A DNA stretch of 64,000 nt from NCBI GenBank assembly GCA_027922465.2, contig BQMF02000822.1:28547-92546 (forward strand), given 5' to 3'. The notes under the pieces are model-generated. The model saw nothing but the letters and a program-made list of their open reading frames with translations, made no database searches and was not told the DNA's origin. The stretch is from Turritopsis dohrnii. Lineage: Eukaryota > Cnidaria > Hydrozoa > Anthoathecata > Oceaniidae. Positions 4,886 to 61,158 of the stretch are shown here, piece by piece (the first letter of the stretch is position 1; every line of letters begins with the position of its first letter). The translations under genes and the position numbers were made by a program.

Positions 4886-5285
4886 GGAGTTTTCCTTCGA
4901 ACTGGGTCTGTGTAACTAATAGAACGAGCGGTTACCTTCCTTTCATACTATGAAGGAGCGAAACCTTGTATCACTTACTAATGTTACATTTTTCTTAGGC
5001 AAACAGTGTTCATCAAACTTTTTGATCAGAAGGTCAAAGTCCATATTGTCTTCATTTCTCTCAAAGGCAAAAGTGTTATAGATTTCCCTTCCTTGGGGTC
5101 CTATGCATGTGAGAAGAATACTTGACTTAACTTTATTGTCTTTTTGATCCTTTTCTGTTGCTGCCAAGTAAAAATCCAACTCCTGCTTCCATCTTTTCCA
5201 ATGTTCCCTGAGGTTTCCATCAAATTGCATCTGACTCGGTGGAGTGAATGTGTTCAGATCCATTCTTCATTCATCAAATTATTTT

Positions 5286-5299
5286 TACTTCCGACACCA
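5286..5299 (-). promoter_or_regulatory. Primer-binding site of the gypsy element
   Basis: Directly inside the 5' LTR the minus strand reads TGGTGTCGGAAGTA. This complements the 3' end of a tRNA and matches the usual tRNA-Leu site with one mismatch. The tRNA identity is from memory. Confidence 0.6.
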
Positions 5300-5448
5300 T
5301 GTTATGATCAGCACTAAAGGTGTGTGTAGTGTCTAAAGCCTGCTATTCCAATAAAGATGTCCTATATATATACAAAGATAATCAAGGCCAAAGCTCTTAG
5401 TGAGCGAGACCAATATACAAAATGGTAGCCTAAGTCATAATCATAACA
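5300..5448 (-). repeat. 5' LTR of the gypsy element
   Basis: A 149-bp LTR starting TGTTATGATC and ending ATAACA. It would carry the promoter for minus-direction transcription. It abuts target duplication GCAGT at 5449-5453. Confidence 0.95.
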
Positions 5449-12448: not shown

Positions 12449-14737
12449 GAATAGGACTCTTCCCAAACAGTCATTATGAAAATATGACCTTCAAACATGA
12501 TCCTTTGAGATTAATATTATAACACATGACTTCTTGGTGGGAGGAGTGGAGTTTTTGGGTCCAGCGGATGAAATCACAGCGTAGATCTTCTTCGGGCCCT
12601 CGTAAACTGTGACACGCTAGAATCCTGATAATCACTAAAATGCGAAGAGAAATAGCAATAAAAATAACTTCTATAAAATTGAAGCCATTTTTTCTCCAAT
12701 GAATTATTCATGCAACAATTTTAGTGTGCTTAAGTGCTTCCTTGTTCAGTTCTGTTTTGATTTGCCTGAGATATACAACAAGTTCACTTGTTATTGCTTT
12801 ACGGAACAGCTTCTTGCCTGTCTTGCGCGTTGTTGTCCTAGGGACAAAAGGGACTACACGATTATAAATTATCAAAAATTTTGAAAATAGTTGCCGTTGC
12901 GGTGGGTTTTCTGGTTTAATCTGACGCTGATATACAAGGTAGTTAGACGCATTAAGTTAATCTTTATTAACTTGTTATTGGCGGAAATGGAATTTCCTAT
13001 CACATCTTGGGATAATTTGGTCATGTATGAAATGATTTCACAGACTCGCACTTGCATTTGATCAAAACAGAATTTGGACTTCAGTTCGAAGACTGATGAG
13101 TTTGTATGCGACTTTACTCGTACAGCAATTTGATGGCGTTGGTTTCTGGTTTGGGTGTTTTTCATTTCATTTTAGTTCATTTCGGTGTCTGTCAGGTTCA
13201 TCGTGTCATATTGTTGCAAATACCACTACATTGTAAGTCCCAAAAATTATTTTGTGTTATATGATGCCGTTATAAAACTGTTGAAAGCACGTACATTACC
13301 AGGAAAATTGTCTTGATAACGATCTTTTGAATTCGTATCATTACTATGTAGTTTTTATTTCTCTATTCTTTTTCCGTACTGTTGTCTTTACTCAGCCAGT
13401 TTCTTTATCATTAATTTATTTACTTACGGGAATATTTTTTCAAACTTTCATTTCATTTCATTTAAGCATAATGTTTGAGAGCATTGTTTGTGTTTAAGCT
13501 TCCTTGGTCGTACCTAAGATACTTTCTAAGATCAGAAGGGAATTACGGACTGCATTTGATTCAATTTACTGTAAAAATGGCACATCACGAGTTATTTGTT
13601 TTGGTAAGGGGGTGTTCATATTAGCACAGCAAAGCGGGTTGGCTCGGTTCACCGGGCTGATTTTCTCTTGTGTTCACATGAGAAAAAACATCCTGACAAA
13701 CCGGGTTGAAAGATGTCATGTGATTATCAAACCAGTCTGGAATTGTTCACAAATGACGTCAACCAATTTTTTTTCAACATTTTTGATTCCCCTCCTTCCG
13801 TCAACCTGCGTCAACTTTGCTTTACCCTCTCCCTGAGTTGACATCATCATTTGAGAAGGAACCCCCTTTTACTTAATTAGAAGAATCAAGGTTCTGAACA
13901 TAGTGAAGGTTGACGTCAACAGTAGTATCACCTCCGATTTTAATTTTCCGTTGAGTTCATTTCATTCGTTGCATTCTGGGAGTCGTGTGACATATGACGG
14001 AGATGATTACATAAGGAGAATGGCTAATTCTCGTGATAAATAAATAAATTAACAGAACTACTTAGTATTGCTGAATTCGAATAACTGCGCCACTTTGCCC
14101 AAGAAGTCATTAATAAAGATGTGATCGATGTGATAAAGAGTACTAGCCGCTTTAGCATTACGTAAAAGACGGCTTCGTTCCTTCCCCATAAACCCTGTAA
14201 GAAACGAATGGAACTTTGAATAACCATTGGGGGTATCACTATCTTACAAAGCTCGGATAACTGATCCAAAAAAATGTATGCGATCGTTTGTCTTCGATCT
14301 TTTGTGTAGAGATAACGTTGATTAAATACTTTAATGACGTCATTGGTAAATAGTGGAGGAGAATGTTTTTAGCATCATGCTCTACATATCTTTCCCAGTT
14401 AAAAAACTACTGCGAAGAAGAGCATTTCTATTGGTATATACACACTATTTCAATAAAAATGCTCTTCATCACAGTGACTTTTGAAAATTTTTGCTTACTG
14501 GATTGCTATCCATACTTTTGTTCATATCTAGCTAAAATGAACTTTGTACCTTAAATCAACAAAAGAATAAATGTGCTTTGATTTTGACGTTTTAAGTGGT
14601 TTCTATGGAAACAATCGAGTTTTTCTCAGAATTTTATTATATAAAATTTTTCTTTATACTTTGTTGTACGAATTCTTTTTTGTTTAATCAGATGCTAAAA
14701 CAAGATCTGCTTAGAAGTGCTGTTTTTTTTTATCAAA
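12449..14737. other. Intergenic, no supported gene
   Basis: AT-rich sequence upstream of the RTP-like gene. A block near 13610-13720 with GGGTGTTCATATTAGC and CCGGG/CGGGTT motifs looks like a weak relic of a GGGG-ended MITE, but I cannot find matching ends. GACGTCA motifs occur near 13754, 13910 and 14335. No convincing promoter was identified. Confidence 0.4.
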
Positions 14738-15670
14738 ATGGCCACAGGCCCAGTAAACCAAAGTGCATGGCGTGCAGCATTCAGAAAGCTGTTTCAGAAT
14801 TTGGATAAAAAAGAACTAGCAGAACACGCTCGTCTGCTTTTCAACCAAGAGTTTACTGTTTACGAGTTGACTGGTCAAGCAGTTTTTGTTTGCAACGAAA
14901 CGGAATGTAAAAGAAAAAAATGGCATTCTTTCAAAGCTCGTATGAGATTCAAGTACGTGTTAACAAAGGAAGGAAAACCGAAACAAAGATTTGGAAAGGT
15001 TACTATGATTCCGTTCGGTCAACAATGTAGATATTGCGCCAAGAGACGTTTGGAAGAAGAGGATCCGCTGTACTTGATGCCCAACTTCCTTCCTGATGCC
15101 ATTGAAGAAACCCTACAAAAGATTTGCGAGAAAGTGCTGGTCAAATACTACAACGAAAAGGTCCCTTCGCAGTTTATCACTCATAAAAGGTCTGGTTGGA
15201 ATTTATCTCATCATTATCCTTCACACTCTTACAGCAGCCAGCGCCCCCAGGGTCCGCTTCAACCACTGTACCTACCCGCTGAAATGTTTGTACTCTACCC
15301 AGGATCTAATATAGTAGCTTTTTCCTACATTGCGCCAACAGAACACTTATATCCACAGCAAACATATGGATCAAGCGAATATGAAAGAAACAATTTAATG
15401 GGAGATCAAGAACAGTATGAGGATGACTTGTTTACGGTTGCCATTGGTCAGGGGTCACATGATGAGCAGCTCTGTGAAGCATGTCCTAAAGGAGTTTGCA
15501 CATCCGGGAAGACACAAGGAATTTCGTCTAAACGCGCCAGCAGACGACAACCAACAAGCGGTGAACAGCGGACTGTTTCAGTAACAAAAGAAATGTTCAA
15601 TGGTCCAGACGATGTTTTAGATAAGAGTAACAAAGTAAAATGGAAGCTTTACTTCCAAACCTTGTCTTAG
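14738..15670 (+). CDS. Receptor-transporting-protein-like 3CxxC zinc-finger protein
   Basis: An uninterrupted 310-codon frame starting at ATG 14738 (context CAAAATGG). The order of features matches the RTP/3CxxC family: SAWRAAFRKLF near the N-terminus, the first zinc ligands in FVCNETECKRKKWHSF (about residues 51-66), an FGQQCRYC motif near residues 96-103, and a late CEACPKGVC block near 248-256. The first Cys pair is spaced CX4C rather than CX2C. Family members chaperone seven-transmembrane receptors to the cell surface, and vertebrate RTP4 is interferon-induced and antiviral. The long Ser/Gln/Tyr-rich stretch between the second and last Cys blocks looks disordered. No C-terminal membrane anchor is visible. 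No introns are seen, so a retrogene origin is possible. Confidence 0.8.
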   Translation: MATGPVNQSAWRAAFRKLFQNLDKKELAEHARLLFNQEFTVYELTGQAVFVCNETECKRKKWHSFKARMRFKYVLTKEGKPKQRFGKVTMIPFGQQCRYCAKRRLEEEDPLYLMPNFLPDAIEETLQKICEKVLVKYYNEKVPSQFITHKRSGWNLSHHYPSHSYSSQRPQGPLQPLYLPAEMFVLYPGSNIVAFSYIAPTEHLYPQQTYGSSEYERNNLMGDQEQYEDDLFTVAIGQGSHDEQLCEACPKGVCTSGKTQGISSKRASRRQPTSGEQRTVSVTKEMFNGPDDVLDKSNKVKWKLYFQTLS

Positions 15671-21479: not shown

Positions 21480-22692
21480 TCAGTAAAAATCACCTAGTAT
21501 TCCCTTAGGGTATGTAAGCTAACATGTTATCTTTAATACATAATGTTTTGAAGAAAAAGAATACATAACTTGCCTGACTTCCTCCTAAATGTTTATCCCA
21601 TCCAATTAGGATACGTGGTTGCTAATGTCTTGATTCAATACACTTCAATATAAGTTTATACTGTTGTTATATATTTGCATCTGTAAAACTAATTCAACTG
21701 TTAGAGGAACCATAAATGTATACATACATTTTGGTTCTTGTTGATAAGTTTGATCAGCGTTTCGCTCCCAAAATGCACTACGTTAAAATAAAGGGTGGAG
21801 GGAGGGCGCATTCAAACAAATAATTTACTTATTTATTCGAATGAAAAGAACTCTTTTTGTATTGTTGCCCCCGCAGCGAGCGTACAACAGCGAGCGTACT
21901 TTTGTGTTGTTTTTGTGAAGTGAACGACAAGGATTTTAAAGCACAGTTTCAAATCTGGAATTTTGTCCACTATTTTTGTATAAATGTCTAGCTCTAAATC
22001 TTTCATTCAATAAATTTTATTCAATGCACTTATTTTTGGCGGATCTTGCCTTAAAAAGATTTTAATATGAGAAAGAAAGAAAAGTGACCAATTTTTTGAG
22101 GGGGGTGACTTAAAGATTTTAATTGGATTTCTGTGTATGCAAGAAAGCCTACAAATTGTCGTTCTTCGTGTTTTTCTTCTTTCTGTCCTCCAAAGATCAT
22201 GATCAATAAAACATTTTTATATTTTTTCTTGTTTTTTTTTGTAAACTTTGGCTATGTTTTGTTTCGAATCAAAGTTTGAAACGCAGATTTCTAAGGATTT
22301 TTCGCTTTAATTTCTTTTTGAAAAAGTTTTTTTTTTCTTTTGGCTCTTACAGAATTTTTTTAAAAAATCTTAATCTTATTTTGATTATAAAAATACGTAT
22401 CCATGCTTTTAGTTCACACATTTCTTTTGTTTGTATCAAATACTTTCTGATGTTACTTGTTAAGCCTTATTTACACTTTTGAAAGGTATATTAGCATCAG
22501 TGTGACATAGGATTAAGAGATAACAAAAAGTAACAAGACTTTGTTTGTTTTTGTTTCCGTTGTATAGGCTTGCAATGTATAGCTTGTTGCGTGTACAAAT
22601 TGGAATGCTTGAGCGCGGGGGCATTTTTAGCTAAAGCTACATGCTAGTAAGTAAAATACTGCGAAAATTCGATAATTTAATTTGATTTGATA
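21480..22692. other. Intergenic, no supported gene
   Basis: AT-rich with T-runs. It holds the second palindromic repeat (21697-21746) and ends in the left target duplication of the LINE (22681-22692). Confidence 0.5.
21697..21746. repeat. Palindromic 50-bp repeat, copy 2
   Basis: Same core and hairpin potential as 18912-18961, with one or two differences in the core. Confidence 0.7.
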
Positions 22693-24361
22693 TTGGATCT
22701 GATATTGGAAATTATAGGCCAATATCCGTTCTGCCAGTTATTTCGAAAATCCTAGAAAGGATTATGTACAACAAGGTATACAACTACTTAACACATCATA
22801 AACTAATATACTCTAAACAGTTCGGTTTTCAAAAAAATACTTCTACTGAACATGCTATCCTGAAATTAGTAGATGAAATAACTGCTTCTTTCTCACAAGG
22901 TAAGTTCACTGTTGGTGTATTCATAGATCTGTCAAAAGCTTTTGATACGGTTGACCACAACATACTCTTAGAAAAACTTAAATATTATGGACTCCACGGA
23001 AAAATATTTGAATGGTTCCAAAGTTATTTGAGAAATCGGAAACAATATATTGCGTATGGACACGGAAAAATTACAAAAGCACTAGATATTACTTGTGGAG
23101 TTCCCCAAGGGTCAATCTTAGGGCCACTACTATTTCTTATATACATGAATGATCTTTATAAATCCTCTACAGAATTTACACAAGTTATGTTCGCTGATGA
23201 TACAAATTTATTTTATTCCCACAAAAACTTTGCAGAACTTTTTTCAACAATAAATTTAGAGCTTACTAAAGTAGCTGAATGGTTTAAAGCAAATAGGCTG
23301 TCATTGAATATAAGCAAAACAAAGTACTCTATTTTCCATCCATCAAATAAAAAGCGGTTCATTCCAGCGATTATTCCGGAAATAAAAATCGACAATACTT
23401 GCATTAAAAGGCAAACTGTAACTAAATTTCTAAGAGTTATGTTAGATGAAACTCTTTCATGGAGAAGACAAATTGAAACTGTTACTACTAAAGTTTCTAA
23501 ATGCATTGGTATATTATATAAGGCAAGACCCTTATTGACGAAACAACTGCTAATACAACTTTATTATGCGTTCATTTATTCCCACATATACTATGCAAAT
23601 ATTGCTTGGGCTAGTACGTCCAAATCAAAATTGTTGCCTCTTTATCGACTTCAGAAACATGCTATGCGTGTTATACATTACAAAAACCGTCATGCAAATG
23701 TTAAACCACTTTTTGACGATCTCAAAACTTTCACTATCTATCAAATTAACGTTTATCAAATTCTATGTCTTATGTATAAATGCAAAACTAAAACTGCGCC
23801 GTCCACATTTCACCATTTATATACTATTAAAGTAGCGAGTAAATACACAACCAGATTTGCGAGAATATTATGTGAGCCGTATTGTCGCAATAAACTTAGT
23901 CAAATTAACATATCTTTTCGTGCTCCACATTTGTGGAACATACTCATTGTACCAAAAGACACCCTACAGGATTGCAAATCCTATTTAAATTTTAAGTATA
24001 AACTTAAGGTTATGCTCCTCCAGCACTCTGACAACATGGAACAATATTTTTAATACGCGTTTTATTTTACGACCAATTACTCATTTAAAGATAAATTGTA
24101 AACAAATTTCTTACGTAATCAAATCCTGAAATATCTCAACAAGAACTAGCATAAAAGGTTCTCGATGATAAAATCACCTTGATCTTCTGCGAGTTTTCCT
24201 TGTTTCTTTATGAGTTTACGAGAATATGAACTTGTATGATATTCTTTTACGCATGTATAATATACTTAACACTTTGCAGCTTGTTGTAAGGAATATATTA
24301 GAACCTTGTAAACTTATAATCGACAGAAAATATACTTATCTATCTATCTATCTATAATTAT
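22693..24361 (+). mobile_element. 5'-truncated non-LTR retrotransposon (CR1/Jockey-like LINE)
   Basis: Flanked by a 12-bp target duplication TTTGATTTGATA (22681-22692 and 24362-24373). It ends with a CTAT tandem tail (about 24337-24355) instead of poly(A), as in several CR1/L2-type lineages. Only the 3' part of ORF2 remains, so this is a dead-on-arrival copy produced by incomplete reverse transcription. Confidence 0.9.
22695..24053 (+). CDS. Reverse transcriptase fragment of the LINE
   Basis: An open frame of about 452 codons, entered at the truncation point and ending at TAA. RT motifs in order: NYRPISVLP, KAFDTVDHNILLEKL, GVPQGSILGPLLF and the catalytic FADD box (MFADDTNLF). The C-terminal conserved region of CR1/Jockey RTs follows. 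The endonuclease domain and the N-terminal part of ORF2 are missing. The frame is otherwise free of stops, which suggests a recent insertion. Confidence 0.9.
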   Translation, partial: GSDIGNYRPISVLPVISKILERIMYNKVYNYLTHHKLIYSKQFGFQKNTSTEHAILKLVDEITASFSQGKFTVGVFIDLSKAFDTVDHNILLEKLKYYGLHGKIFEWFQSYLRNRKQYIAYGHGKITKALDITCGVPQGSILGPLLFLIYMNDLYKSSTEFTQVMFADDTNLFYSHKNFAELFSTINLELTKVAEWFKANRLSLNISKTKYSIFHPSNKKRFIPAIIPEIKIDNTCIKRQTVTKFLRVMLDETLSWRRQIETVTTKVSKCIGILYKARPLLTKQLLIQLYYAFIYSHIYYANIAWASTSKSKLLPLYRLQKHAMRVIHYKNRHANVKPLFDDLKTFTIYQINVYQILCLMYKCKTKTAPSTFHHLYTIKVASKYTTRFARILCEPYCRNKLSQINISFRAPHLWNILIVPKDTLQDCKSYLNFKYKLKVMLLQHSDNMEQYF

Positions 24362-36410: not shown

Positions 36411-36493
36411 TAATTATGTGCCTACACGATTTGAAACAACTTGTTCTAATCATGTGTTCAATCAGAAGTTACTTTAAGTTTAGATAAACACCA

Positions 36494-37903
36494 ATGGAAA
36501 TTATGACATCCAAAGTCAAGAACCAATTTAAGTCAAAAGAACCGGGTTCAACACCCAAAGAAGATGGACCATCAAATACATGGATTCAAAAACGAAAGCA
36601 AACCCAATATGTATTCTTTCTACAAACGTTTTCATTGGGGATGGATTATTCAGTGTTTTTCTTGACACTCTGGCTTTACATAGAGAATTTGATCAAACCA
36701 CAAAACCCAAAGTTGATTTACAGCTTGACATCGGCTTCATACTTAGTATCTGCTGTGGTGTTGCCAGTGGTTATCGCTCCCATAGCTGATAAATACCGTT
36801 GTATTCGAAAATTATTGTTAATATGTAACACATTCGCGATTATTGGCAACCTAATTTATGCACTACCGTTTTCACCAGCTTGCTTAATTGTCGGTCGTTT
36901 GATAGCAGGAACAGGAGCTCCTCTCAAAGGAGTGATTACTGGGGAAATAGCTCGATCGTATACACCAAAAGAAGCTGTATCGAAATTTTCATTGATTGGT
37001 TTGGCATTTAGCACTGGATTTATTTGCGGTCCTGCAATTAACATAGTATTTACTGGGACCAACTTCTACATCAATAAATGGCATATTACTGCAGAAAACG
37101 TACCAGGGCTTTACATGGCCGTTTTGTTTTTCTTGTTGCAAATTGTTGTCTTCTTCTTTGCTCATGATCTGTCCAAGGAATACGATCTCAAGATGATTTG
37201 TGCAAAAATTGCTGAAAACGAAAATGGTAAAAAAAGATGCGATCACGAACGACAGCCTCTGCTTCCAAAGAATGAATTCCGCATAAAGAAATCAGTATTG
37301 ATTTTATTCAAAAGATTAGATTCTGGTGTGATATTTTTCTTTTCATATTTTTTTATGTACTTAATGGTGACATTTGACATGTGGATGCCAATAATGGTAG
37401 TAGATGTATTAAAATGGAAACCGCTGGCATTGAATCTGATAATATTTGGCAGTGCTTCTGTTGGTGGAATTGTGTTAATAGCAATGATGCTGAAGCCACT
37501 CTCCGAAACTTTATTAAACTATCTTATGTTGGCATCTTTGATAGCAATGATCCTCATGCAAGGAATTTTTGTTTCATTGAAAACTTATCACAATCACAAC
37601 ACTATTGTTATTCCTCTGTGGTGTCTTTGGATTCCGTTATTCACTATAGTCTGTGTGATGGAAAACGTTTATCTGGTGAACACGCTAGCAAGGATGGTTT
37701 CGTCAGCAAAACAAGCTACTGCTGAGAGTGTACGACTTGGATTCGCAAGATCAGGATCTTTAACAGCTCTGTTAACGTCTGCTTATTTGTTTGATTGGTT
37801 GAACATTTATGCTGTTGTGATGACGTGTATGTGTGTATTAGGGACGATAATATTTTTTGCAAAATGGAAAAAATTAAAAAATCCGGAGGAAATACTAAAT
37901 TAA
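36494..37903 (+). CDS. MFSD8/CLN7-like major facilitator transporter
   Basis: 469 codons in one exon with the two-times-six membrane-helix pattern of the major facilitator superfamily. After a hydrophilic N-terminus, helices begin with VFFLQTFSLGMDYSVFFLT (about residue 40). The loop APIADKYRCIRKLLL is the superfamily signature, and GRLIAGTGAPLKGVITGEIA marks helix 4-5. A cytoplasmic loop carries ERQPLLP near residue 252, an acidic dileucine signal for endolysosomal sorting, as in MFSD8-type proteins. The substrate is not known from sequence. The upstream ATG at 36494 and another at 36503 are both plausible. No introns are seen, and the MITE just upstream may supply regulatory sequence. AATAAA at about 38226 is a candidate polyadenylation signal. 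Confidence 0.8.
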   Translation: MEIMTSKVKNQFKSKEPGSTPKEDGPSNTWIQKRKQTQYVFFLQTFSLGMDYSVFFLTLWLYIENLIKPQNPKLIYSLTSASYLVSAVVLPVVIAPIADKYRCIRKLLLICNTFAIIGNLIYALPFSPACLIVGRLIAGTGAPLKGVITGEIARSYTPKEAVSKFSLIGLAFSTGFICGPAINIVFTGTNFYINKWHITAENVPGLYMAVLFFLLQIVVFFFAHDLSKEYDLKMICAKIAENENGKKRCDHERQPLLPKNEFRIKKSVLILFKRLDSGVIFFFSYFFMYLMVTFDMWMPIMVVDVLKWKPLALNLIIFGSASVGGIVLIAMMLKPLSETLLNYLMLASLIAMILMQGIFVSLKTYHNHNTIVIPLWCLWIPLFTIVCVMENVYLVNTLARMVSSAKQATAESVRLGFARSGSLTALLTSAYLFDWLNIYAVVMTCMCVLGTIIFFAKWKKLKNPEEILN

Positions 37904-39856: not shown

Positions 39857-42800
39857 ATGAATTCTGATCATGACTACGAAATCCCTCAAAAGTTTGTTTT
39901 GCCTCGAACACAGATTGATAGAGACATAGTTGATGCACGGCAACATCAGGCAACAACAACTCCCTGATGACCCTCAACAGCGTCGTCGAATTAGGAATGC
40001 TGAACGACAAAGGAGATACCGTGCAAATCAAACTGCAATTGGTGCTCAGTTGAGAAGGGAGAGGGATGCACAAAATCAAAGACAGCGACGGGCTAATGAG
40101 CAACCTGAACAAGCTGCTGCTCGACGTGCAGCTGATGCTCAACAGCACCAACTTCTAAGAAACAATGAGCAACTCGAACAAGCTGCTGCTCGACGTGCAG
40201 CTAATGCGCAACAACACCAAAGAGCATATGTCCGAAACAGACAAGTGCGCAGGGCTCGGTTTTTAAATGCTGCACGGATTGATGTTGAAAACAATGACTT
40301 ACCTGACATTCAGTCTTTAGGTGAATTTAACATTTTATGTAAACATTGTGGAGCAGTCAAATTCGACCGTGAAACTAATTTTAAATGTTGCACAAATGGA
40401 AAGGTACAACTTCCAAATTTATTAGATTATCCGCCTGAGTTAAGGAATCTTTTACTTGATAATTCTGCACTGGGTAAACATTTCCGTAAGTGTATTAGAG
40501 TTTATAATAATGCATTTAGTTTTGCTTCTCTGTCAGCTAATCTACGTCCGCTCCCAGGAAATAGGCCTCCATGTTTTAGGATATGTAGACAACTGCTACA
40601 TAGGTATGGAGCACTGCATGCTAATGAAAACCAAGTGCCTATGTTTAGCCAACTGTATATTATCGAAGCTGCTAATTCGCTTGACATGCGTATGCAAAAC
40701 CCTTCCAATGCAGATTGCAACAGAGACTTGATGGGGCAAATACAAACGGTCATTAATAGAGTTTCAACTTATGCCGCAGCATATCGTAACTTGGCTCAGG
40801 TCGAACGAGAAGAAGAAGAAAAGGCGCTCTTAAAAAATAGACCAACCTCGGTAGTGGGTATGTATATGCGTGAAGGTGAAGACAGGAGGAGATACAATGC
40901 TCCACATCACAAAGAAGTCGCAGCAATTTTTGTAGGTAACGATGGTGCGCCTCCGGCTGGTAGAAATATTGTAGTGTATCCAAGAGATCAGCCCATGCGA
41001 AATATTTCTTACATGTCGACAAACATTGACTCCATGATGTATCCAATAATTTTTCTTAGAGGTGATCCTGGATGGAGTCCGAACATGAATCACGTACAAC
41101 AGCATGCAACTGAAAGGCGGAATAAAATTACACAATTGCAGTATTATATTTATCGTATTGCCATTAGACGTGAATTTTCTGCTTTACATTTAGCTGGAAA
41201 ACTATTTTAACAGTTTGTTGTCGACAGCTATGTCAAAGTGGAGGGAGCGGGACTCGACTTCATACGCCAGAGCCAAGAACAATTACGGGCGGATAGCTAC
41301 ACAAAATTGATGGACTATTTGGAGGAAACTGCCCATGAACGAGACCTCCGTGCGGGTAATATCGTTGTGTTGCCATCTACCTTTTCAGGTTCACCAAGAA
41401 ATATGCACCAATTGAACCTAGATGCTACGGCATTAGTTTCAAAAAAAGTTAAACCAGATTTATTTTTAACTTTTACATGCAATCCTGAATGGCCTGAAAT
41501 TGTTCAAAATCTTTTGCCTGGTCAAACTGCATCAGATAGGCCAGATCTGGTTACACGAGTATTCAAATTGAAGTTGGAAACTCTTAAAAACGATGTTATA
41601 AAAGATTTTGTTCTAGGTGTATCTGTAGCACAGGTGGATGTTATAGAATTTCAGAAAAGAGATGCACATGCTGTTGCATCTCGGCAACGAATTTAAGTTG
41701 CGCAATGCTGATGACATTGATTTATTGATATCAGCACGAATTCCAAATCGGGACCAAGAACCAGAACTTTACGAAATCATCAAATCTTGCATGGTACATG
41801 GTCCGTGTGGCCATTTCAATGTGTCTTCACCGTGTATGCAAGATGGTAAGTGCAGCAAAAATTTTCCGAAGCAGTTCAACAATGGAACTGTTTTAAATGT
41901 GGATGGCTATCCTTTATATCACCGACTAGATGACGGAAGAACTGTTCGAATTCGGAATATGGATCTTGACAACAGATGGATCGTCCCATACAACCCTTTC
42001 CTCAGCAAAAAGTACAATGCACATATAAACCTAGAGGCCTGTGTTTCCATTAAAAGCGTCAAGTATTTGTACAAATACATTTACAAAGGACATGATACTG
42101 CTCATATTGAAATCAATGAGCGAATAGATCATGACGAAATCAAAACCTTTTTAGATGCGAGGTATGTATCTGCTCCAGAAGCTGTGTGGCGTTTATGCTC
42201 TTTTCCAATGCACACTCAAAGTCATGCTATTTTACAACTTCCTGTTCACCTTCCAAATGAGCAGCAGATTTTTTTCAGAGAAGGACAGGAACAAGCAGCA
42301 CTGGAAAGAGGACAAGAGCACACCAAGTTAACTGCTTGGTTCGAATTAAATCATGTTGACGAACGGGCACGTCAATATTTATATCCTGATATCCCCCACC
42401 ATTACGTGTTTCAAACACGACAACATAAGTGGGTGACATGGCAGCGTGGAGCAGAAAAAACTGTAAGTAGAATGTACAATGCTAGCATTCGCCAAGGTGA
42501 AAGGTATTTCTTACGTGTGCTGTTGTTACATGTTCCTGGTGCGACTTCCTTTGAATACCTTAGAACTGTTAATGGGATTGTATATAGATCTTTTAGAGAA
42601 GCGTGTATTGCACTTGGACTATTGGATGACGATACTTTTTGGATACGAACCATGGAGGAACTTGCCGCATCAGCAACTCCCTCTAAAATTCGCAAAGTGT
42701 TCTCCTTCATTCTGATCCATGGAGAGCCAAGCAATCCAGCTGAATTGTGGGAAAGATTCTGTGCTCACATGGTTGAAGATTTTTTGAGACACCAGACGGA

Positions 42801-44681
42801 AGTACAAGCAGAGCAGTCAGCTCTTGGTAAAATTCAGGAAGTCTTGCAGCAATTTGGTAGGGTTGTTACTGACTTTGATTTACCTGCTTTTGAACAAGCT
42901 ATTGCAGACGATCTACCAAATGCTGATCAAATGAGGGAAGAAGCCATCAACATGAGGAACACGTTGAATGCTGACCAGCTTGCTGTTGCCGACGCAGTCC
43001 TAGATGCAGTGGTAACAAACAACAACAATAGTGCTAAAATTTTCTTCCTTGATGGACCCGGTGGAACAGGTAAAACTTTTACGTACAATTACATCATTCG
43101 CGAGGTTATTGGAAGAAACCTATCAGTAAGTACGTGTGCGGGGACTGGAAGTGCAGCAATACTGTTAAAAAATGGTAAGACAGTTCATTCTCCTTTCTAA
43201 TTACCTGTTCCTGTATTGGACAATTCAACGTGCAATGTTAAGCCTAATAGTAGGCACGCCGATTTTTTACGTAACCAGCATATTGTAATATTTGATAAGG
43301 CAAGTATGATTCCTAACCATGCACTTGAGGCTATTGATAGAATGTTTAGAGATATCTTTAACAGTGATGTGCCTTTTGCTGGAAAGGTTGTTCTTTTAAG
43401 TGGTGATTTTAGACAGACTCTTCCTGTTGTGAAAAGAGGCAGACAAGCTCAGATTGTGGAAGCGTGCATCAAGAGCTCTGTCTTGTGGCCAATAGTGCAA
43501 ATCTTTCATCTGAATGTCAACATGAGAGCTGCTCCTGGGTAAAGGGAATTTACGCAATTTCTACTTGCCTTATGAAACGGAGCGATACCGAAAAAAGAGG
43601 ATGATCCATTAAAAGATTCCATTGAAACTAGCCACCAAGGCGGCGTCGTTCGCCGCCCATGTGCACCTGCTTTGTGTCACCCCGGAGACCGCAATAAACC
43701 TCATATTTCTTGAAAATCGGCTCGTACAACTTGTGTTCAGCCAGAGGCAGATTCGAAATCAAATATCAAATATCAGTTTAAACGATGGTTCCAAAAAACC
43801 CAAATTTCATGATGTGTTACTTATTTATATTTACTTATATATTTAACAATCGTTGATCAGTACAACAATACACTCAAAACGTAGGGAGAAAAAACATCAA
43901 CTTTTTATTAGCTTTTGTTTTAAAAAAGTTACGCGCTCTAACATGGGTGCTATCAAACAGGGGAAAAATGGTTTCTCTTCTTAAAAAGATCACACGAGAG
44001 GAGAGAAAGAAGGCACGTGCCAAATGAATAAATAGAATAAAAAAACGTTCGATCAGAAGCGCTTAACAATTAAAAAAAGAAATTAAATTATTAAAGGAAA
44101 AGCAAAAAAAACATTTTGTTTTATGATACTCTTTTTTTACCTATCGGTTTTTAAACATTTTGATTGCTCAAAAAAAAAGTTCACCCGTCTCAGACAGTCA
44201 GGAAAGCGCTAGGATACACTGGCAAATCGAACATGCTGCCACGTTCTGCCACTGCTGCTTTTTGTCATTTTTGTCATTGAAGGATGGTTTATGCAACGGC
44301 ACACGATTAGTCATCCGTAATCTCCAAGAGAATATCCTTGATTGTGAAGTGCTGACCAGTATCTCTGCTGGAAATCGGGTGCTCATTCCTAGAGTGACCT
44401 TGTGTCCAAATGATACCAACCTTCCGTTTCAGCTGAAGCGAACACAATTTCATTTCCGTTTGTCATATGCAATTACCATCAACAAAAGTCAAGGTCAGAC
44501 TTTTGAACGGGTTGGTATTTATGTGCAAAGGCCTTGCTTCAGTCACGGTCAACTGTATGTTGCATTTTCACGAACACGAAGCTTTGAAGCAGTGAAAGTA
44601 AAGGTTTGTAGAACTTTACAGCAAGGCTATGTTAGAGAGAGATGCTACACTAGAAATGTAGTATACCAACAGGTATTATGA
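39857..44681 (+). pseudogene. Helitron Rep-helicase (RepHel), inactivated
   Basis: ATG 39857 opens a frame that shifts near 39958 into the arginine-rich N-terminal region with RR(I/N)AERQRR-type repeats. A zinc-binding block CKHCGAVKF...FKCC follows near 40340. A TAA interrupts at about 41208. The HUH Rep domain follows (GNIVVLPSTFSGSPR, LFLTFTCNPEWPEI), with a frameshift near 41665 exactly at the expected HUH metal-binding motif. The YLYKYIYKGHD part of the Rep domain lies near 42070. The PIF1-like helicase shows Walker A (GPGGTGKT, about 43060) and Walker B read as DKAS instead of DEAS, with a TAA at 43198. Helitron D replaces part of the helicase (43628-44262). The final segment (LSYAITINKSQGQTFERVG, VAFSRT) ends at 44681. 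It is not expected to work. Confidence 0.9.
43628..44262 (-). mobile_element. Helitron D, truncated copy inside the helicase
   Basis: The minus-strand 3' end (CTAG at 43631-43628 with the CGCC hairpin) abuts a T and matches Helitrons A and B, including ACGCGCTCTAACATGGGTGC-type sequence and the block GACAGTCAGG. The expected TCTATATA 5' end is absent, and the helicase resumes at about 44265 after a gap. A deletion therefore removed both the 5' end of D and part of the helicase. Confidence 0.8.
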
Positions 44682-52842: not shown

Positions 52843-55800
52843 GATGTTTTTGATTTGATTATGGAAAGAGAAACTGCTATGGAATGCGAACAAAGTAGCT
52901 AATATTATAAATTTTTAATAATGTTAAGGGAACAACAACATGGTTCCAATTAAGGGTAAATAGAAAAATAATGTTGAGAGTCCAAATTTTACTGTTCACG
53001 ATGCAGTTGAAGCGAATTCCTGTTTGTATATAAAAACCTCTAATTTTGCGAAGCCTAGAAAAAGTTACTAATATAGATTTCGACGAATTTAGCACATCTT
53101 GGCAATTTGAATTTTGAAGGTAGACAATAGCAGCGTGGTGATCTGTATAAGTTCTGCGTAAGATCTCACGTAAGATTTTTCAAAGTGAAGCTGGATATGT
53201 GGTAGTCCTTTTAAACCTATCAAAACAACATCAACGTTTTCACTCAAGAATTTATTCAGCAAAAACTTAACTTCATCACTAAAATTCAGTGTCAATCGAC
53301 AGCACATGTATGGACATGGTTTGCGGAAAATATCAAAATATGGAAAAAATATCTTGGTTGAGGTGGTTTCCTTCCACATAATTACAATATTTCGTCTATC
53401 CCGGACGGGATGATAGTTTACGCGTGCCCATTAATCAACAATATAAACAATAACATAAAAGCTATCCTGGGGCGATTTTGATCCCGGCAAGGCGAGATAA
53501 AATTTGATATAATCGCAGTACAAAAACTGTCTGGAACAATTTTCATCCCGCCCTGCCGTGCTGAAAAGCTCCATATGATGACCCTCTAATTTTAATTTCT
53601 TTTTTGCAGGACTCTGGATTGCATACTTAATTGATCAAAAACTAACTGCGCGAACATCTTTTGAGAAAAAGAAATTTTGCAAAGAGTTATTATATGGTGA
53701 TAATAAGGTGGAGGAGCTGTTTTACCAATATAAACGGGAGAAACCGGTTCTCGAATGCATTGCATACATGCTCTCACACCGTATATCAAACTGGGAAGCT
53801 AAAACGTTTCTAAGATTTATTAACGACACTTTGAGGACGTGTGATCTCCAAGCTCACATAATCACAGGGGAGCAACTGAAAGAGCTACCAGTACTTCAAG
53901 GCATGAAATATTTTAATATATTTGTTTTTAAGAAAAATAAGAAAAGAAAATTATAATTTGTGGAAATTAATGATATTGGTGTGTCAGTAATACCTCATCG
54001 GGGAATGCTGTGAGAAGGAAAAAGGCATTTTAGAATATTTCGTAAGGAAACAGTATAATTGCCCAAAACTAGTGAGGTGGTCAGTCCGTAGGCTTCAAAC
54101 CGTTTTTCGTTAAAGGAAAGATTTACATGGCATGTTGAAAATATTTTGTCTGAGAAAAAGTTTTTTCACCAGAAATCTTGATGATTTTGCAAAAACATCG
54201 TTACTGTCCTCGATAACCTTTGACTTTTATGGCGTAGAAAAAAACGTTAGTTGTGTTGGAATGGAAAATTGAACAGTCGGAAGTGTAAATACACCCTCTA
54301 GTAAGGACAAATCGTAGCGGAAATGATTGGAGCTTAACTATGTATTATATTATTCTGTGGATAGGTACATCAGATGATGGGTGTTTTCAAAATCATGAAG
54401 AAAAATCAAAGATGTTCGACAATATTTTCACAACAATTTCAACACGGCTACCTGATCTTGAGAGAGTCCTTGGCCACTTCTTGGTAAAATACCACGAATA
54501 TCAAGCCATAAGAGTAAATTTCCAGCATGATGTGAAAGAGAGACTATTCGAAGTGCTGAGCGCTTGGTATGAATCAAACAACCAAGAGCAGACAACATGG
54601 GGCTATCTTAAGAAGTTATTGCTATATTTTGGAAAAAATGAAATTGTAGCAGCGGTCGAACAAGGTAATAATGTTTCTTAAAAATTTCTTATGATGAACC
54701 ATCAAAAGTTCAAACATATATATTCATATTTTTTATTCTTAATTCCAGATTTGTTTGGCGTAAGTTCTGTAAGGTATGGTTTTGTAAACTTATGCATGTT
54801 TTTAGTTTAAAGTTTCAGTTACTTATCTATTTGTATGTAATTATCTCATTTAATTCTAATCAACACTCGTGAATGAGAAAGTTATCACGACACAGTCATT
54901 GTATTCACTTTGGTTACTGCCCAAACCTAAAGAAAACTGCCGTCGACAAATCTTCCCCACTTGTAGTAAGCTTATGCTTCAGTGATCAGTGAAACTTGTA
55001 TTTTTTACCATAGGCAACCCATTCTATACAGTCAAGAATTTTATGCAGCCGGTAAGATTGTAATTTCTCAATTATTCTACAGTACACCAATATCAGAAGT
55101 ATGTCCTGATGATTCCGAAGTAAATACAAACACCTCTTTTTTGAAAAACTGTTTTTTGCATTTTATGTATTCAATCCTACCTTCCAAAGGTTAGCTGCAG
55201 TGCTTATTGCTAATTACAAAGAAAAGTGTTCAAATCTAAAAGATAATGAATTAATACATGTACAGCTGAGGGTTACTATGCTGATGTAAACAGAAATAAA
55301 AAAATTGGTATATGGTCTACAAAGGAGCAGCTGTTTATTATTAACAAAATGCTTAAGCAAAGTGAAAATAATAATTGACTCTGCCGGAGTAATCAAAGAA
55401 ACTGCTGACACCCTTTTTTCTCGACCTTCATTTTGTTTAAGAAAACTGGTGTATACGACTTTGTAACCAAAGAAGCAATTATAGGAGAAACATTTGACAA
55501 TAGTATGAATACTTAGCATGTTTCTAATTCTAAACGGCAAATGCTTCCCTTGAACATAACGTGATGGCTTTAAGTCCTGTATTTTTTCCAATGGAATCCA
55601 GATAACTTACGTTGAATCTCTCAACAAGAGAAACTTTTATTATTTTGTAAAGTGCCAGTATCAGTTAATAAGCCGGAATAAGACAAAGTCATTTCACTAA
55701 TTCTTCAGAAGAATTCTCTTCCTGGCACCCATCCAAACTCAGATCCATAAAATTCAAAGAAAACGTACGTGACTCATTAAGATAAAAAGCAAGTTACCAA

Positions 55801-58800
55801 GGCATATATCAGACTACATATGAAATTTCATTACTTATTCAACTTAAAACTAAAGTGACAATAATTAAAAAAAAACATTAAGTACACACGCTACAGATTC
55901 AAGTATAACATGGTAGACTTGTCATTCAGCAGAAACAAACGATGAAGACTCTAAATTCGAGTTGGTGTACACTATTAGCATGTACTCCAAGTATATGAAA
56001 TATATTTCTATTTGACTGGCCGTTGACTTAATGACTCAATTGCTTTGGTCTACTTTGCCAATTCAATCCAATGCATTGATCTTCTTAGATGCACACTTTA
56101 CGGTTTTGCAGGGTGTTCTCTAAATATTGTTAGGTCAATCCGTTTGTATACGTCTGAGCTAATTGGATTATTTTCTCTCTGCAACTTCTTTTTCTATGTA
56201 GTTCGTAAACAAACTAGTCTGATGAGATGCCAATCACTAACTCCAATTCGGTTCATCATAGTTACTCCTTGGCCTTTACCGTTCAAGTCGCTCCAGTTTC
56301 CTACTGAAGATAAAAACATGTCAGTAAATTCACAAATGAGAAACAATGTGTATCTATATTCACTTTTTAACTGTGGATTTTTAATTTTTCAGTTTAAATT
56401 TTTAATAGAGTTCTCTTTATCAATGCTTGAAAATGGTACAAACACTAATTCAAACTTAAATTCTTTAAATGCTTTCATTGTTTCAAAGTCGTGTAATACC
56501 ATCATGGTGCATACATTGCTTCAAATTTCAGAAGACATTTGGAGGGTAGTTTAATAAAAAAATTAAGAAGATGCTTTCATTCAATCTGTACACTCTCTCC
56601 CCACACAGCCATCCCGATGTTGTTGTATTCTTGTAATCTGTTTTAGTAACTGCTGGGCAAGTGGAGACTGCTATTTTCCGAACAAAACCTGGTGTGTTAA
56701 CCCACACAAGGTTTCGAGATATTTATGAAAACTTGGATTTATCAAAGATTGACATACCAGAAAAAGTCAGTATTGTCACTAGTGGTAAACTGTGCACCAC
56801 AGCATTAACCTTTGATGATTACACCAATAGATGCAAAAAGTTTTTCACAGATTACTTCCAGGTGTATATTTATGGTGGCATGTGCAACAAGAACATCAGG
56901 TTTCCACCAACATATATGTGCAAAAGTAAAATCTATGATGTTGCAGCAAAATTTGAATTATCTAATACAGTTTTAATAAATGACTATAATCTTGTTGAAC
57001 ACTGTAACATGCTTCATCTAGATCTTAATGACATTTTTTATAAACTAAGAATTGAACCTTCATCTATTGGCGAGGGAGACAAGCAATTTCTTGTGTTTGA
57101 TTATGTAAAGCAATGCATATTTATCGTACATTACAGTGACGCTGTTACTGAAGAAGGTGCCCTAGAAGACTTGAAGGCTGGTGATAACTATTTTCGATTA
57201 TTCTTCTACGTATTCAGTCAACTTCTTGGAAAAAACCTCTCATATATCAATGTAATAGCTGCACCAAATATTGAAAGTGACTGTGAAAACGTTCTTCTTT
57301 TCAATAGAGATGATATTTTTGAAAGAGATTTGTCCACGAAACTTATAGGGTTATATTCCTACATTGAAGACATAACGCCGTCTGATGTTAAAAACCAAAG
57401 TCACCAACCTGTCATACTTGCAGCTAGTTATATCTTCAGTTTCCTTGCTATTCAAAAAATCGGACCAGAGCTGTTGTTTGGGACAGCGACAGAAAAAATA
57501 TTATTGATGTGGCTAACAAAAGAACAGATGAAAGTCGTATTTAGTGAGAAACTCTGGAGAATAGTCACTGGTGGATATGGCAGTGGCAAATCTGTAGTGA
57601 CAAGATATCTTCTAGAACATTTAGTTGGGCATGCCACAGAACCTGTAGATATATATTACATTTTATTTGACAATGATAGTTTGTTCCTGAAAAGTTCAGA
57701 AAACTATTTCAATAAAATAAAGGATACCTGCTTGAAAGACGTTCAATCAAATAAGGCAAATGTGATTTTTGGAAATTGTGAGGAAATTGAGAAAGGTTTA
57801 TCAATGGAATTTGAACAAATTTCCGGAAGTGAACGAAAAGACATTCCTTTCACAGTGTCTAACATGCTATTGGCGATCACAAAGAAAGCCATATCATCAA
57901 GAAGGAATTTTCACTTGATTGTTGATGAATTGGATGGAGAAATTATCAGTTCAGTTGAAGCACTTACACTCAAAGGGATCTTTAAACAATATAGAGATTC
58001 TCTAAAAGATTCTCACATTTTATTTTCTATACGCTCAATGGAAAAAATGCGTGCTAACATTGTTGGCAAGCAGCGAATAGAACACGATTCCTTCCAATGT
58101 TATAATGACTGCGGAATGGAAGTCATGTCGTTGTCACTATCAATGCGCACCACCAAACAAGTATCCAAAATCATTCAAATTTCAATGGAAGGAATTACTC
58201 GTCCAAACAGGTTCTTGCAACCACCGCAGAAGGCATTTCCTGGTAGAAAAAAAATAATCAATTTTTTCAGGGAGTTCAGGAACCCGACAAATCAAACTGC
58301 TAAATTGTCTTCCCCCAACCAAGTCGATTTCAATAACAGTGAAGAAATCGTTTCACATCAGTTTCAAGACACAGAAGATTTGCCAGGCCAGGTCAATCAA
58401 CTATTGGTGTACCACTCCAACCCCGACAAGATTGATTCAGTTGCTCAGGAACATGACAAAACATTTCAGGGCTCCAACACAGCTATTGAAACTTATTATA
58501 CTTTTCGACAATGTATAGACTGTGGACATAATATTTCTGGTCGACAGCCGGTTGTAGTGTTTTTAAATCAACATGAGAAAGCAGAATTGGCTTCCATGGA
58601 GACATTAACGCTATTGTCCATTGCTTTACAACGCCACTGCTACAATACAGAAAAACGAAATGAGAAACGCATGATCATATGTAATGAGGAAAACGAATAC
58701 AAGATGTGCATCTCTGCGTTATCCTGCTTGAAAAAGAAGCATAATCTTTACATCCCTGGTGCATCTGATTATCTATCCTTTGATGAAAGGTCACTAGTGT

Positions 58801-61158
58801 CTGAAGTAGTGATCACTGATTATGCAGGAGCTAGGGGAATGGAGTGCTCACAAGTTGTTATTCTGGTCAATCCAAAGGAACATTTTAAGAGGCAGTTTTT
58901 TATTGAGATGATTTCGAGAACCACCGACCATCTAGTGCTAATTGTCCCCTATCCTTATAAGAAGAGCATGCATCATAAAACTGAAAAGGAATCCATGGCT
59001 ACTATTTTAAGAAATATATGCCATCAGAATGAAACATGCAAGGAAAATTTACTTGAGATATTTTCGTATTTACTAACAGAGCATGAAGATAAAGAATTTC
59101 CACATGCTGTTTCTTCATACAGTCACAAATCAAAGATAACAACTATCAAAATCAACAAAAATCATTCCCATCATCAGAAACACAGTCAGGTTGCTTTGCT
59201 AACTGATGTGCCATGTAGACCAAAACCTAATGAGAATGCTGCATTAAGGTAGTTCGCTTTTTTTTAAAACATATTTATGGAAATATCCTTTATTTTTTTT
59301 TATATTTCAGCATTTTTCAATATTTACAAAATTTTATTTTTTCTAAATGTACCTGTTTGCATCTGGTAATATTGCGATGAAGTTATATTCATTATGATTT
59401 CCTTTATTGGGAAAACAAGAATAATTACATTTTCTCAGTTTCACTTAAGTGATGGGTAAAAATCTCAAAATACTTGCAAAAATTTCTGTTAATATATTGT
59501 AACATAAACTGGAAAATATAATTTCTGCGATGCTGTTGCCTAATAAGGTCGCTGAATGATCTGACCAAAAGTTTCATTAAGATTACGGGAAGTTTTGTAG
59601 AAATATAGGGATTCAAATGTGAACTTCTGAAAAGCAGACAATACGTGAGGACAGTGTGAAATATTCAAAATTAGACGTTCCCAAAACTCAGTCCATGAAA
59701 TATTGTTCTTAAGTAAGATTAACTCTTGCTGTCGGACTATCATCTTTAGTAACTGTACTTTTAGCTTTATGCAACCAGAACCAGTTCAAGATCTTCAAGT
59801 ACAAATGTTATCGGAGAATTTGATAGAACTCTCTTGGGCTCATCCTGCGAATTCATTTCAAGTGAGAAGAATGACGTTGTTTGAAGACACAACTAAAACG
59901 TCAGGAAAACACCATGTTGTACACCCACATCTTCATGGAAACAAAGTCCAAATAACTGTCGAAAAGAAACGAAGATATAAGTTTATTGTATGTGCTATCA
60001 GTAAATACGGAGCCTTAGTGTCTGCACCAACTGAGATACGCTACCCGTTGAGTAGCATTCGGAGGTATTTATCTTCTCTCTTTTATAGTAAGTGTAGCTT
60101 TCTCGGAAATTTCACACAACGCTCCATCGCATGTTGCTTTCTTCGTAGCCAACCATCTGAAAATCCCGCTCAAACTGCGCTTACTCCTCTTGCAACTGTT
60201 CCTGCTAGGAATCATACGTTCGCAGGTATAACTTCGTACCTCTCTTTTTGTAACTGCATTCCTTTTCACACTTTTATTGACTTAAAATCTTCGTTGGTAA
60301 CAGTAATTTTGATTTCAATGACCTCAACAGAGATTGAAAAAGTATGTAAGGATTTGCGAGCACCCAAAGCTAGCATCACAATATATAAGAAGCTTCCTTC
60401 AGATATTAGGAGACAATAGTCCTAAAACAACCTATTACACTCCTTGAACGCATATGTTTTTTATCATTTGTTGCCATTCGTCCACATCTTTCTTTCAATT
60501 CCCGTTTTCTCCGTGAAAACGTTATAAAACATCTTATTTGCATCGAAACACGTCTAGGCCGTGCTCCAGTTCATTCACCGGGTCACTTCGACTTAATCAA
60601 CTGATTTTTGATTGATTGACGCAACTTCAATTTTCATTCATTGCATCGTTTTATCGATCATTTAATTTAGATCTTCGCAATCTTATCCGCAAAAATGATG
60701 TAGTTTCCCTTCAACGTATCCTATTAACGAACACATCGTACGTGAAGATGAGGGATTTGAATGGAATGATACTTTTGATGCACGCTTCACTACTCAATAA
60801 TCGATCGATTGTTCAAATGTTACACCAGTACGGTGCAGACATTGAAGAGACAGACTACGCTGGTCAGACATGTTTACATTGGTGCGCAGCCTTTAATTCT
60901 GTGGATTGCCTCAGCTACCTTCTACCAATGACACCTCCTCACGTCATCGACTTTCAAGATGATTACAAGCAAACAGCATTATATGAGGCATCATGGAATG
61001 GCTCTTTCGAATGTGTTGAATTTCTCCTAACTCATAATGCAGATCCTCATATTAAAGATCGTTACGGAGAGATTGCTTATGATGTGGCGTGCAGATATGG
61101 AGGTAGTAATGAAACGAAAAAGAGAATCCAAGAAGTTCTTCTTCAACGCAAAAAGTAG
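52843..61158 (+). CDS. Multi-domain gene: CARD-like, Death, SF1-type NTPase, FN3, ankyrin
   Basis: Proposed exons: 52843-52894 (tentative), 53610-53900, 54365-54664, 54749-54773, 55014-55051, 56647-59248, 59765-60064, 60149-60225, 60671-61158. Phases fit at every junction (1,1,1,2,1,2,2,1), giving one continuous frame of roughly 1,390 residues. Only the 53900 donor is non-canonical (GC). The order is a helical N-terminal domain, a Death domain, a helicase-like P-loop NTPase, FN3 and ankyrin repeats. By analogy with NLRs, death-fold domains recruit partners, the NTPase acts as a switch or motor, and repeats sense ligands. That role is an inference. The true 5' end is not located. After the stop, AG|GTAAGA at 61159 and TTGTAG at 61253 suggest a further 3' UTR intron, or an alternative end at 61264-61266. 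Confidence 0.75.
53395..53590. mobile_element. Relic of a GGGATG/CCCGTCC-rich MITE
   Basis: Contains CCCGGACGGGATGAT and TTCATCCCGCCCTGCCG, matching the interior motifs of MITEs 20973-21479 and 25657-26047. The ends are eroded. It lies in the intron just upstream of the CARD-like exon acceptor. Confidence 0.5.
53610..53900 (+). CDS. Exon: alpha-helical CARD/death-fold-like domain
   Basis: Acceptor TTTTTTGCAG|GA, 97 codons with predicted helices LWIAYLIDQKL, FEKKKFCKELLY, KVEELFYQYKRE, PVLECIAYMLSH, EAKTFLRFINDTLRT. The spacing and the late AKTFLRFINDTL helix recall CARDs, but the match is weak. The only phase-compatible donor is AAG|GCATGA, a GC-AG intron. If that is not used, the frame runs to a stop at 53956 and would make a short protein. 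Confidence 0.55.
54365..54664 (+). CDS. Exon: Death domain
   Basis: One hundred codons between ATAG|GT and CAAG|GTAATA. The core ERLFEVLSAWYESN...TTWGYLKKLLLYFGKNEIV matches the Death-domain pattern of a helix ending in W, then a T-X-X-X-L helix and a final I-A/V helix. Death domains self-associate to recruit caspases or kinases in cell-death and innate-immune complexes. Confidence 0.7.
54749..54773 (+). CDS. Microexon of 25 nt (linker)
   Basis: TTCCAG|AT...AG|GTATGG. It continues the frame as DLFGVSSVR and connects Death and downstream exons. A stronger donor 14 bases earlier (GGC|GTAAGT) would break the phase, so alternative splicing is possible. Confidence 0.45.
55014..55051 (+). CDS. Small exon of 38 nt (linker)
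   Basis: ACCATAG|GC...CCG|GTAAGA. Phase 2 in and phase 1 out, matching both neighbours, and it reads QPILYSQEFYAA. The phase agreement over three consecutive junctions is the main support. Confidence 0.45.
55052..56646. other. 1.6-kb intron with decayed coding-like sequence
   Basis: Plus-strand pieces near 55190-55450 read codon-like stretches (ANYKEKCSNLKDNELIHVQL, SAGVIKETADTLFSRPSF) with stops and shifts, perhaps a lost exon or inserted gene fragment. Frames at 56045-56554 (+) and 55591-55214 (-) have no recognised motif. Confidence 0.35.
56647..59248 (+). CDS. Exon: helicase-like (SF1-type) P-loop NTPase
   Basis: One large exon (867 codons). Residue numbers count from 56661. A possible Q-motif MWLTKEQMKVV precedes Walker A GGYGSGKS (about 304-311). 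Walker B is IVDELD (about 420-425), followed by HILFSIRSMEKMR (motif III-like), LSLSMRTTKQVSKII (motif IV-like), VVITDYAGARGMECSQVVIL (motif V-like, about 716-735) and MISRTTDHLVLIV (motif VI-like, about 750-762). This is the order of superfamily-1 (UvrD/Schlafen-type) helicases rather than NACHT. The N-terminal 250 residues include GEGDKQFLVFDYVKQCIFIV, reminiscent of a NERD/PD-(D/E)XK nuclease fold but without the E-X-K pair. The C-terminal tail is His/Lys-rich. It ends in AAG|GTAGTT with phase 2. Confidence 0.75.
59765..60064 (+). CDS. Exon: fibronectin type III domain
   Basis: TTTTAG|C...GGAG|GTATTT, phase 2 at both ends. PEPVQDLQVQMLSENLIELSW opens a typical FN3 strand pattern with the conserved Trp; YKFIVCAISKYGALVSAP gives the Y-X-F-X-V core near the end. 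Probably an intracellular FN3 linker here, since no signal peptide or membrane segment was found in the gene. Confidence 0.75.
60149..60225 (+). CDS. Small exon of 77 nt (Pro/Thr-rich linker)
   Basis: CTTCGTAG|C...GCAG|GTATAA. It reads QPSENPAQTALTPLATVPA between the FN3 and ankyrin exons, with phases matching both neighbours. Confidence 0.6.
60671..61158 (+). CDS. Exon: ankyrin repeats, C-terminus
   Basis: TTTAATTTAG|AT continues the phase-1 frame. About four ankyrin repeats are visible: RDLNGMILLMHASLLNNRSI, DYAGQTCLHWCAAFNSVDC, DDYKQTALYEASWNGSFECV, and a final KDRYGEIAYDVACRYGG. Ankyrin repeats bind proteins. The stop TAG is at 61156-61158, but a donor AA|GTAGGT overlapping it could extend the protein by NQP from an exon at 61254. 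Confidence 0.8.

Follow-up and report, generated by a model that had tools for sequence, protein, structure and literature searches.

A multi-copy Turritopsis dohrnii gene family joining a Death domain, a probably SF1-like P-loop NTPase, FN3 and ankyrin repeats: candidate intracellular receptors

We describe a gene of Turritopsis dohrnii whose predicted product carries, in this order, a Death domain, a large P-loop NTPase, an FN3 domain and ankyrin repeats, and which, as judged from its sequence, is one member of a multi-copy family in the same genome. The gene lies in a 64,000-nucleotide stretch of DNA (hereafter the window; C822:28547-92546 in a 436-Mb genome of 891 contigs), and its exons were joined at splice sites read from that DNA. 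Purifying selection, strongest in the two cores of the NTPase, acts on the copies of the family, and they are not in decay. With a little more belief than doubt, we lean towards a lineage-expanded family of death-fold intracellular receptors with an SF1-like switch, for which an immune or cell-death role may be envisaged. The exons of the window copy are as follows:

52843..52894 (+): exon 0, tentative candidate first coding exon; open and phase-compatible, the frame used having the highest codon score
53610..53900 (+): exon A, resembling a CARD by eye only, with a GC donor; conserved in 2 paralogs
54365..54664 (+): exon B, predicted Death domain; Pfam Death and PDB PIDD matches
56647..59248 (+): exon N, the NTPase exon, 867 aa; 52 scored places in the genome, including the window and its twin
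59765..60064 (+): FN3 exon; Pfam fn3 E=0.0067, below the cut-off
60149..60225 (+): linker exon (SQPS...)
60671..61158 (+): ankyrin exon with the stop codon; C-terminal superstructure repeats, Ank_2 1.2e-35

These seven phase-compatible exons, spanning 52843-61158 on the forward strand, form a single open frame of 1369 aa that ends in TAG with 0 internal stops, and in 7/7 exons the chosen reading frame has a higher codon score than the other two. The exon boundaries are more than chance, as they recur across 30 loci fetched from the same genome. On this sequence evidence the exons are genuine parts of a single gene, so that the proposal of the earlier note, that phase-compatible exons place these domains in one frame, holds and is strengthened by the paralogs. 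The acceptor of the NTPase exon is an AG at the expected offset in 28/30 loci and, by eye, an AG a few bases further in the other two; its donor is GT and the FN3 acceptor is AG in 30/30 loci, and the FN3 donor reads 'aggt' in 28/30. The linker exon was recognised in 28/30 loci (one by eye only at E=16, one with an early stop), and the ankyrin acceptor (ttttag/AT or ttttag/AA) and stop codon are kept in 4/4 copies read, the window included. Under a generic splice-site scoring based on consensus frequencies, the Death and ankyrin acceptors scored poorly (top 19% and 26% of all AGs), and both recur in paralogs. Exon A ends in a GC donor in the window copy, as against GT at the equivalent position in the 2 paralogs read; a GC-AG intron at exon A of the window copy (53898-53904) is likely. 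The same generic scoring gave exon 0 a weak acceptor and a weak donor, and a counterpart sought in the paralogs was not recovered. Exon 0 contains a possible start, ATG 52861, with an in-frame TAG immediately upstream, and may encode the first helix of a CARD-like domain.

The exon order was followed in 30 of the 52 scored places, a set that includes the window's own gene and its twin and was fetched with 1.5 kb flanks. The FN3 exon lies downstream of the NTPase exon in all 30. A Death exon was seen in 4/30 fetched loci (one cut by the locus end), a count to be read with the flank length, as the window's own Death exon lies 2 kb upstream and 1.5 kb leaves the exon out of reach for many loci. 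For 6 paralogs the reading was extended beyond these flanks, in some cases on one side only. In one of these paralogs, exon A, Death, NTPase, FN3, linker and ankyrin exons follow in order on one strand (C661:17176-29144). Exon A is present upstream in that contig (C661/L046, 72% identity) and in a further paralog (L042, 53%). Neither Death nor exon A was found in ~4.9 kb upstream of the closest paralog, L015, or within ~3.5 kb upstream of the paralog on C356. The ankyrin exon lies downstream in 3/6 paralogs (C661/L017, C36/L019 and C497/L040; 47-54% identity) and was not found in L042 (~8 kb past the NTPase exon), L015 (~3.4 kb) or C356 (~2.4 kb).

Two observations concern the linker region of the paralogs. 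In L015, at ~5018-5503, three successive linker-type peptides were read (REPSDAPTQTASS..., SKPSDAPTQTASS... and RRPSDVPTRAASS...), a pattern that points to a duplicated exon or to alternative splicing past FN3. The linker exons of L013-L040 have two donor types, one of phase 1 (TFxG, g/gta) and one of phase 2 (RR or GR, ag/gta); therefore, paralogs may splice to different C-terminal exons.

When the 436-Mb genome was searched with the NTPase exon, 56 matches turned up at 52 scored places, drawn from 339 first-look candidates, so that loci may be missed. These 52 places include the window, its allelic twin on C408 and possibly more allelic copies (pairs at dS 0.03-0.04), and should not be taken as a gene number. 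Apart from the window and its twin, identity to the NTPase exon is 51-77%. Twelve contigs hold two or more copies (C36, C4, C497, C249, C325, C661, C254, C551, C701, C244, C24 and C126). No internal stop was found in 54/56 matches, and the other 2/56 have one stop each; in the fetched loci the matched stretch is free of internal stops in 30/30. By a simple Nei-Gojobori count with the twin left out, the median pairwise dN/dS is 0.30 (406 pairs, 29 copies). By region of exon N, where 1 to 7 pairs without usable dS were lost, the medians are 0.33 for the N-terminal module, 0.21 for the first core, 0.46 for the insertion, 0.19 for the second core and 0.36 for the tail. A dN/dS above 1 occurred in 0/403 pairs in the first core and 1/399 in the second, which indicates no diversifying selection there. 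The possibility that the copies are pseudogenes was rejected on the uninterrupted matched stretch of the 30 loci together with the dN/dS of 0.30.

Exon B is well supported as a Death domain by several comparisons taken together. In the window the Pfam Death model matched below its cut-off (E=0.13 and 0.076), and in the paralog L042 it came close (E=1.7e-4, 22.1 bits against a cut-off of 22.6); no Pfam Death match was found in paralog copies L017 and L020. In the PDB, exon B is closest by sequence to the PIDD death domain (two matches, E=0.011 and 0.017), and a four-sequence profile of the exon matched the same domain at E=0.0066 and 0.0089. A profile alignment of exon B to Death matches from its own genome reached 18.9 and exceeded 100/100 shuffles, whose top score was 15.6; this alignment used 8 of the 26 genome matches, 2/8 rows being wrong-strand noise. 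For exon A, Pfam and PDB gave no Death or CARD match, and 87/100 shuffles scored as well as the exon itself against the Death profile. Its CARD character is a reading by eye only, and a second death-fold unit in exon A is putative. Of the death-fold domain or domains proposed in the earlier note, one has held up in exon B, and the one in exon A found no profile match. As a separate observation, Pfam Death matches at E<=0.001 number 26 in the genome, and four of them form equal-scoring pairs on different contigs, looking as if two haplotypes were retained.

The NTPase exon is the largest part of the gene, and its regions can be laid out as follows, invariant positions referring to an alignment of 24 sequences (the window, 22 out of the 28 remaining loci and a Hydra protein, P0001):

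56649..57491 (+): N-terminal module of exon N, no known family; dN/dS 0.33
57507..57602 (+): Q motif (LTKEQ) and Walker A (GGYGSGKS); E296, Q297 and GGYGxGKSVV invariant
57909..57944 (+): Walker B (HLIVDELD; EELS in Hydra); E431 and L432 invariant
58113..58166 (+): motif IV-like (GMEV..LSLSMRTT), assigned by eye; M494, E495, L499, S502, M503, R504 and T506 invariant
58197..58496 (+): fast-evolving insertion between the two cores; dN/dS 0.46 versus 0.21 and 0.19
58803..58949 (+): motif V-like (TDYxGxRGMExxxVV) and VI-like (SRxTDHLVLI), assigned by eye; T727, D728, G731, G734, E736, H765, L766 and V767 invariant

The N-terminal module matched 0 Pfam families at E<=10, and its first 280 residues might be read, by eye only, as NERD-nuclease-like. 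For the part that follows, a profile alignment covering the Q motif and Walker A only was scored against 44 E. coli proteins and a PIF1 open frame from the window. Four SF1 helicases, helD (41.5), rep (40.2), recD (39.3) and uvrD (38.1), rank 1-4 of 45, and the remaining 41 proteins reach at most 23.6 (the PIF1 frame 23.6; MalT, the single STAND control, 19.8; RecB 18.8). Thus, 4/6 SF1 proteins in the comparison stand out, with RecB and the PIF1 fragment in the background. SF1 motif III (GDxxQ) is absent from the 6 members compared and from the consensus, which have ILFSxRSMEK or similar instead; because this motif is missing, a processive helicase is disfavoured. Motifs IV-VI gave no significant profile score, and their pattern is conserved by eye in the paralogs and in Hydra.

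Among Pfam families, the STAND-type NPHP3_N is the only one above its cut-off for the window NTPase (27.0 versus 24.8 bits), and over the 24 members it matches 24/24 at E<=1 (best 7.3e-7), followed by AAA_22 (23/24, best 2e-5), the SF1 model AAA_19 (20/24, best 0.0022), UvrD (1/24, 0.078) and NACHT (1/24, E=0.15). No match at E<=1 to the Schlafen core (AlbA_2) or group-III helicase was among the 24 families listed for the 24 members, and scans of the window and these members gave no match to RIG-I, SF2 helicase or RIG-I C-terminal domain models. PDB searches with the NTPase returned no match or one chance match each, NCBIfam and PHROGs gave weak, scattered matches to the NTPase only, and PADLOC gave weak matches to PDC-S01 (14/24, best 2.1e-5), BrxD (18/24), mad8 (8/24) and type IV RecD (2/24). 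An AlphaFold model built with 2 sequences reached a pLDDT of 28 and was unusable. We consider the NTPase probably SF1-like; a STAND assignment is unlikely, and we still give it real weight. The suggestion that a helicase-type NTPase stands in place of NACHT is likely, given the rank of the four SF1 helicases and the motifs read by eye; it is not carried by motif III, which is missing, by motifs IV-VI, which lack a significant profile score, or by Pfam, where NPHP3_N alone passed. As to its more specific Schlafen/UvrD-like wording, no Schlafen or UvrD family passed.

The PIF1 frame used in this comparison belongs to Helitron-like frames at 39930-44681 (+) of the window, with a PIF1 helicase match (E=2.5e-15) in 41647-43197. 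A Helitron-derived helicase as the source of the NTPase was rejected, since this frame scores 23.6, whereas the top four reach 38-41.

Protein searches covering 5.8 billion sequences, two of which scored only ~8,000 candidates each, returned a sole relative, the uncharacterised Hydra vulgaris LOC105848254 isoform X2 (P0001). It shares 23% identity over the NTPase core, an identical TGGYGSGKSVV and the Q, IV, V and VI positions, but differs in that Pfam finds no Death, FN3 or ankyrin domain in it and its Walker B is EEL. Searches of plasmids and phages by tblastn with the window exon gave chance matches only, P0001 gave none in plasmids, and profile scans of genome and viral contigs confirmed no relative; a relative in bacteria, viruses, phages or plasmids was thus not confirmed by these searches.

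Death domain, NTPase and repeats together make up the logic of NLRs. The present family resembles the NLR/STAND receptors (NACHT or NB-ARC) in its death-fold, P-loop NTPase, repeat sensor and many copies per genome, whereas its NTPase appears SF1-like with a second core, and FN3 stands between NTPase and repeats. PIDD1, whose Death domain is the closest by sequence in the PDB, is not known to have an NTPase and carries its Death domain at the C terminus.

Related combinations have been described in animals. TRADD-N is fused to Mov10, DDX60 or RLR-like helicases in expanded families of cnidarians and brachiopods (PMC8195603); these share with the present gene the pairing of an apoptosis adaptor with a nucleic-acid helicase, the marine invertebrate setting and the expansion, but here the adaptor is Death, the NTPase is of another family and FN3-ankyrin follows, and Pfam scans of the window gene gave no TRADD-N match. 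RLRs with a Death domain, combining death-fold and helicase, occur in sponges and lophotrochozoans (PMC8998645); there the helicase is of RIG-I type with a RIG-I C-terminal domain, and the word ankyrin is absent from the text. DZIP3/HEPN proteins with ankyrin, CARD, NACHT and Death, expanded in Nematostella and oyster, show a similar mix-and-match of death-fold, NTPase and ankyrin, with HEPN and NACHT where the present gene has its NTPase (PMC3710099). Because death-fold or TRADD-N units with other helicases, and death-fold-ankyrin-NACHT proteins, are described in these papers, the kind of protein is known, and the present variant was not found. Titles and abstracts, in a coverage that leaves out most subscription journals, yielded no description of this domain combination; the earlier note knew of no family of this exact make-up.

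In the receptor reading that we prefer, the Death domain, possibly preceded by a second death-fold unit, would be the N-terminal signalling end, the SF1-like P-loop NTPase would act as an ATP-dependent switch or a nucleic-acid-engaging clamp and not as a processive helicase, and FN3 with the ankyrin repeats would form a ligand-binding or self-inhibiting end. Binding of a ligand would release the NTPase, ATP binding would cause the proteins to cluster, and the clustered Death domains could nucleate a PIDDosome-like assembly leading to cell death or an NF-kB-type defence.

Several other explanations have to be weighed against this receptor reading. A serious minority possibility, which we hold to be unlikely, is that the NTPase is a divergent STAND/NACHT-type domain and that the copies form a strict NLR-like group (Death-STAND-FN3-ankyrin) whose helicase look is a coincidence of P-loop motifs. 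The NPHP3_N match, passing in the window and recurring in all members, speaks for it, and by eye the ILFSxRSMEK after Walker B could be a STAND sensor-1. It is opposed by the LTxEQ before Walker A, invariant in E and Q, by the score of MalT, the only STAND control, far below the four SF1 helicases, and by the second core with an invariant TDxxGxxGxE that follows; STAND proteins are not known to carry such a second core. That the exons were drawn from two or more adjacent genes is extremely unlikely. The weakness of exon 0, a Death exon not found near two paralogs and an ankyrin exon not found near 3/6 would be compatible with such an artefact, but all six exons stand in order on C661 and the boundaries are conserved, and separate neighbouring genes were rejected on this recurrence of order and boundaries in the paralogs.

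The function admits further alternatives. The family could instead act without an immune role, as a Death-domain scaffold serving development, cilia or stress, which we regard as very improbable: Death and ankyrin proteins serve many processes, and the matched NPHP3_N family is named after nephrocystin 3, but copies by the dozen, mostly intact and in many cases sharing a contig, with one relative found elsewhere, look more immune- or conflict-like. It is also rather improbable, if less so, that the protein is an RLR- or Schlafen-like nucleic-acid sensor, a reading that overlaps our preferred one and in which the SF1-like core would bind foreign RNA or DNA, Death would signal and ankyrin would be regulatory. 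The SF1-like first core is consistent with this sensor, as are the fusions of death-fold and helicase in sponge and lophotrochozoan RLRs (PMC8998645) and of TRADD-N with Mov10 or DDX60 in cnidarians and brachiopods (PMC8195603); the Pfam scans, however, gave no RIG-I, SF2 or Schlafen family match, and the absence of motif III makes translocation doubtful.

NLRs, plant NB-LRRs and Apaf-1 are alike in being built on STAND NTPases. A bolder form of the receptor reading, which we put forward tentatively and with somewhat less than even confidence, is that the family represents a new class of animal innate immune receptors, present in dozens of copies in one lineage, in which an SF1-helicase-derived NTPase switches death-fold signalling; the same reading holds that an NLR-like design, with a fast insertion between the NTPase cores and an ankyrin sensor, was reached independently. 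If true, the switch module would be replaceable, the same receptor logic running on another class of P-loop motor, and a receptor class would be added that NACHT- or RIG-I-based surveys of invertebrates would probably miss. As the NTPase is conserved and sits in a single exon, copies of the family can be counted readily in any genome, and the paralogs permit direct tests of ligands and selection.

The window contains other features besides this gene. Retroelement-type open frames spread over several frames at 755-4438 (-), with reverse transcriptase and integrase recognised by eye, are adjoined by two tRNA genes of opposite orientation and equal scores (4468-4540 (-) and 4814-4886 (+)). A LINE-type reverse transcriptase frame lies at 22686-24053 (+; RVT_1 E=5.1e-34), a protein with a 3CxxC zinc-binding domain is encoded at 14699-15670 (+; E=2.6e-12), and an MFS transporter occupies one long frame at 36488-37903 (+; E=7.2e-21).
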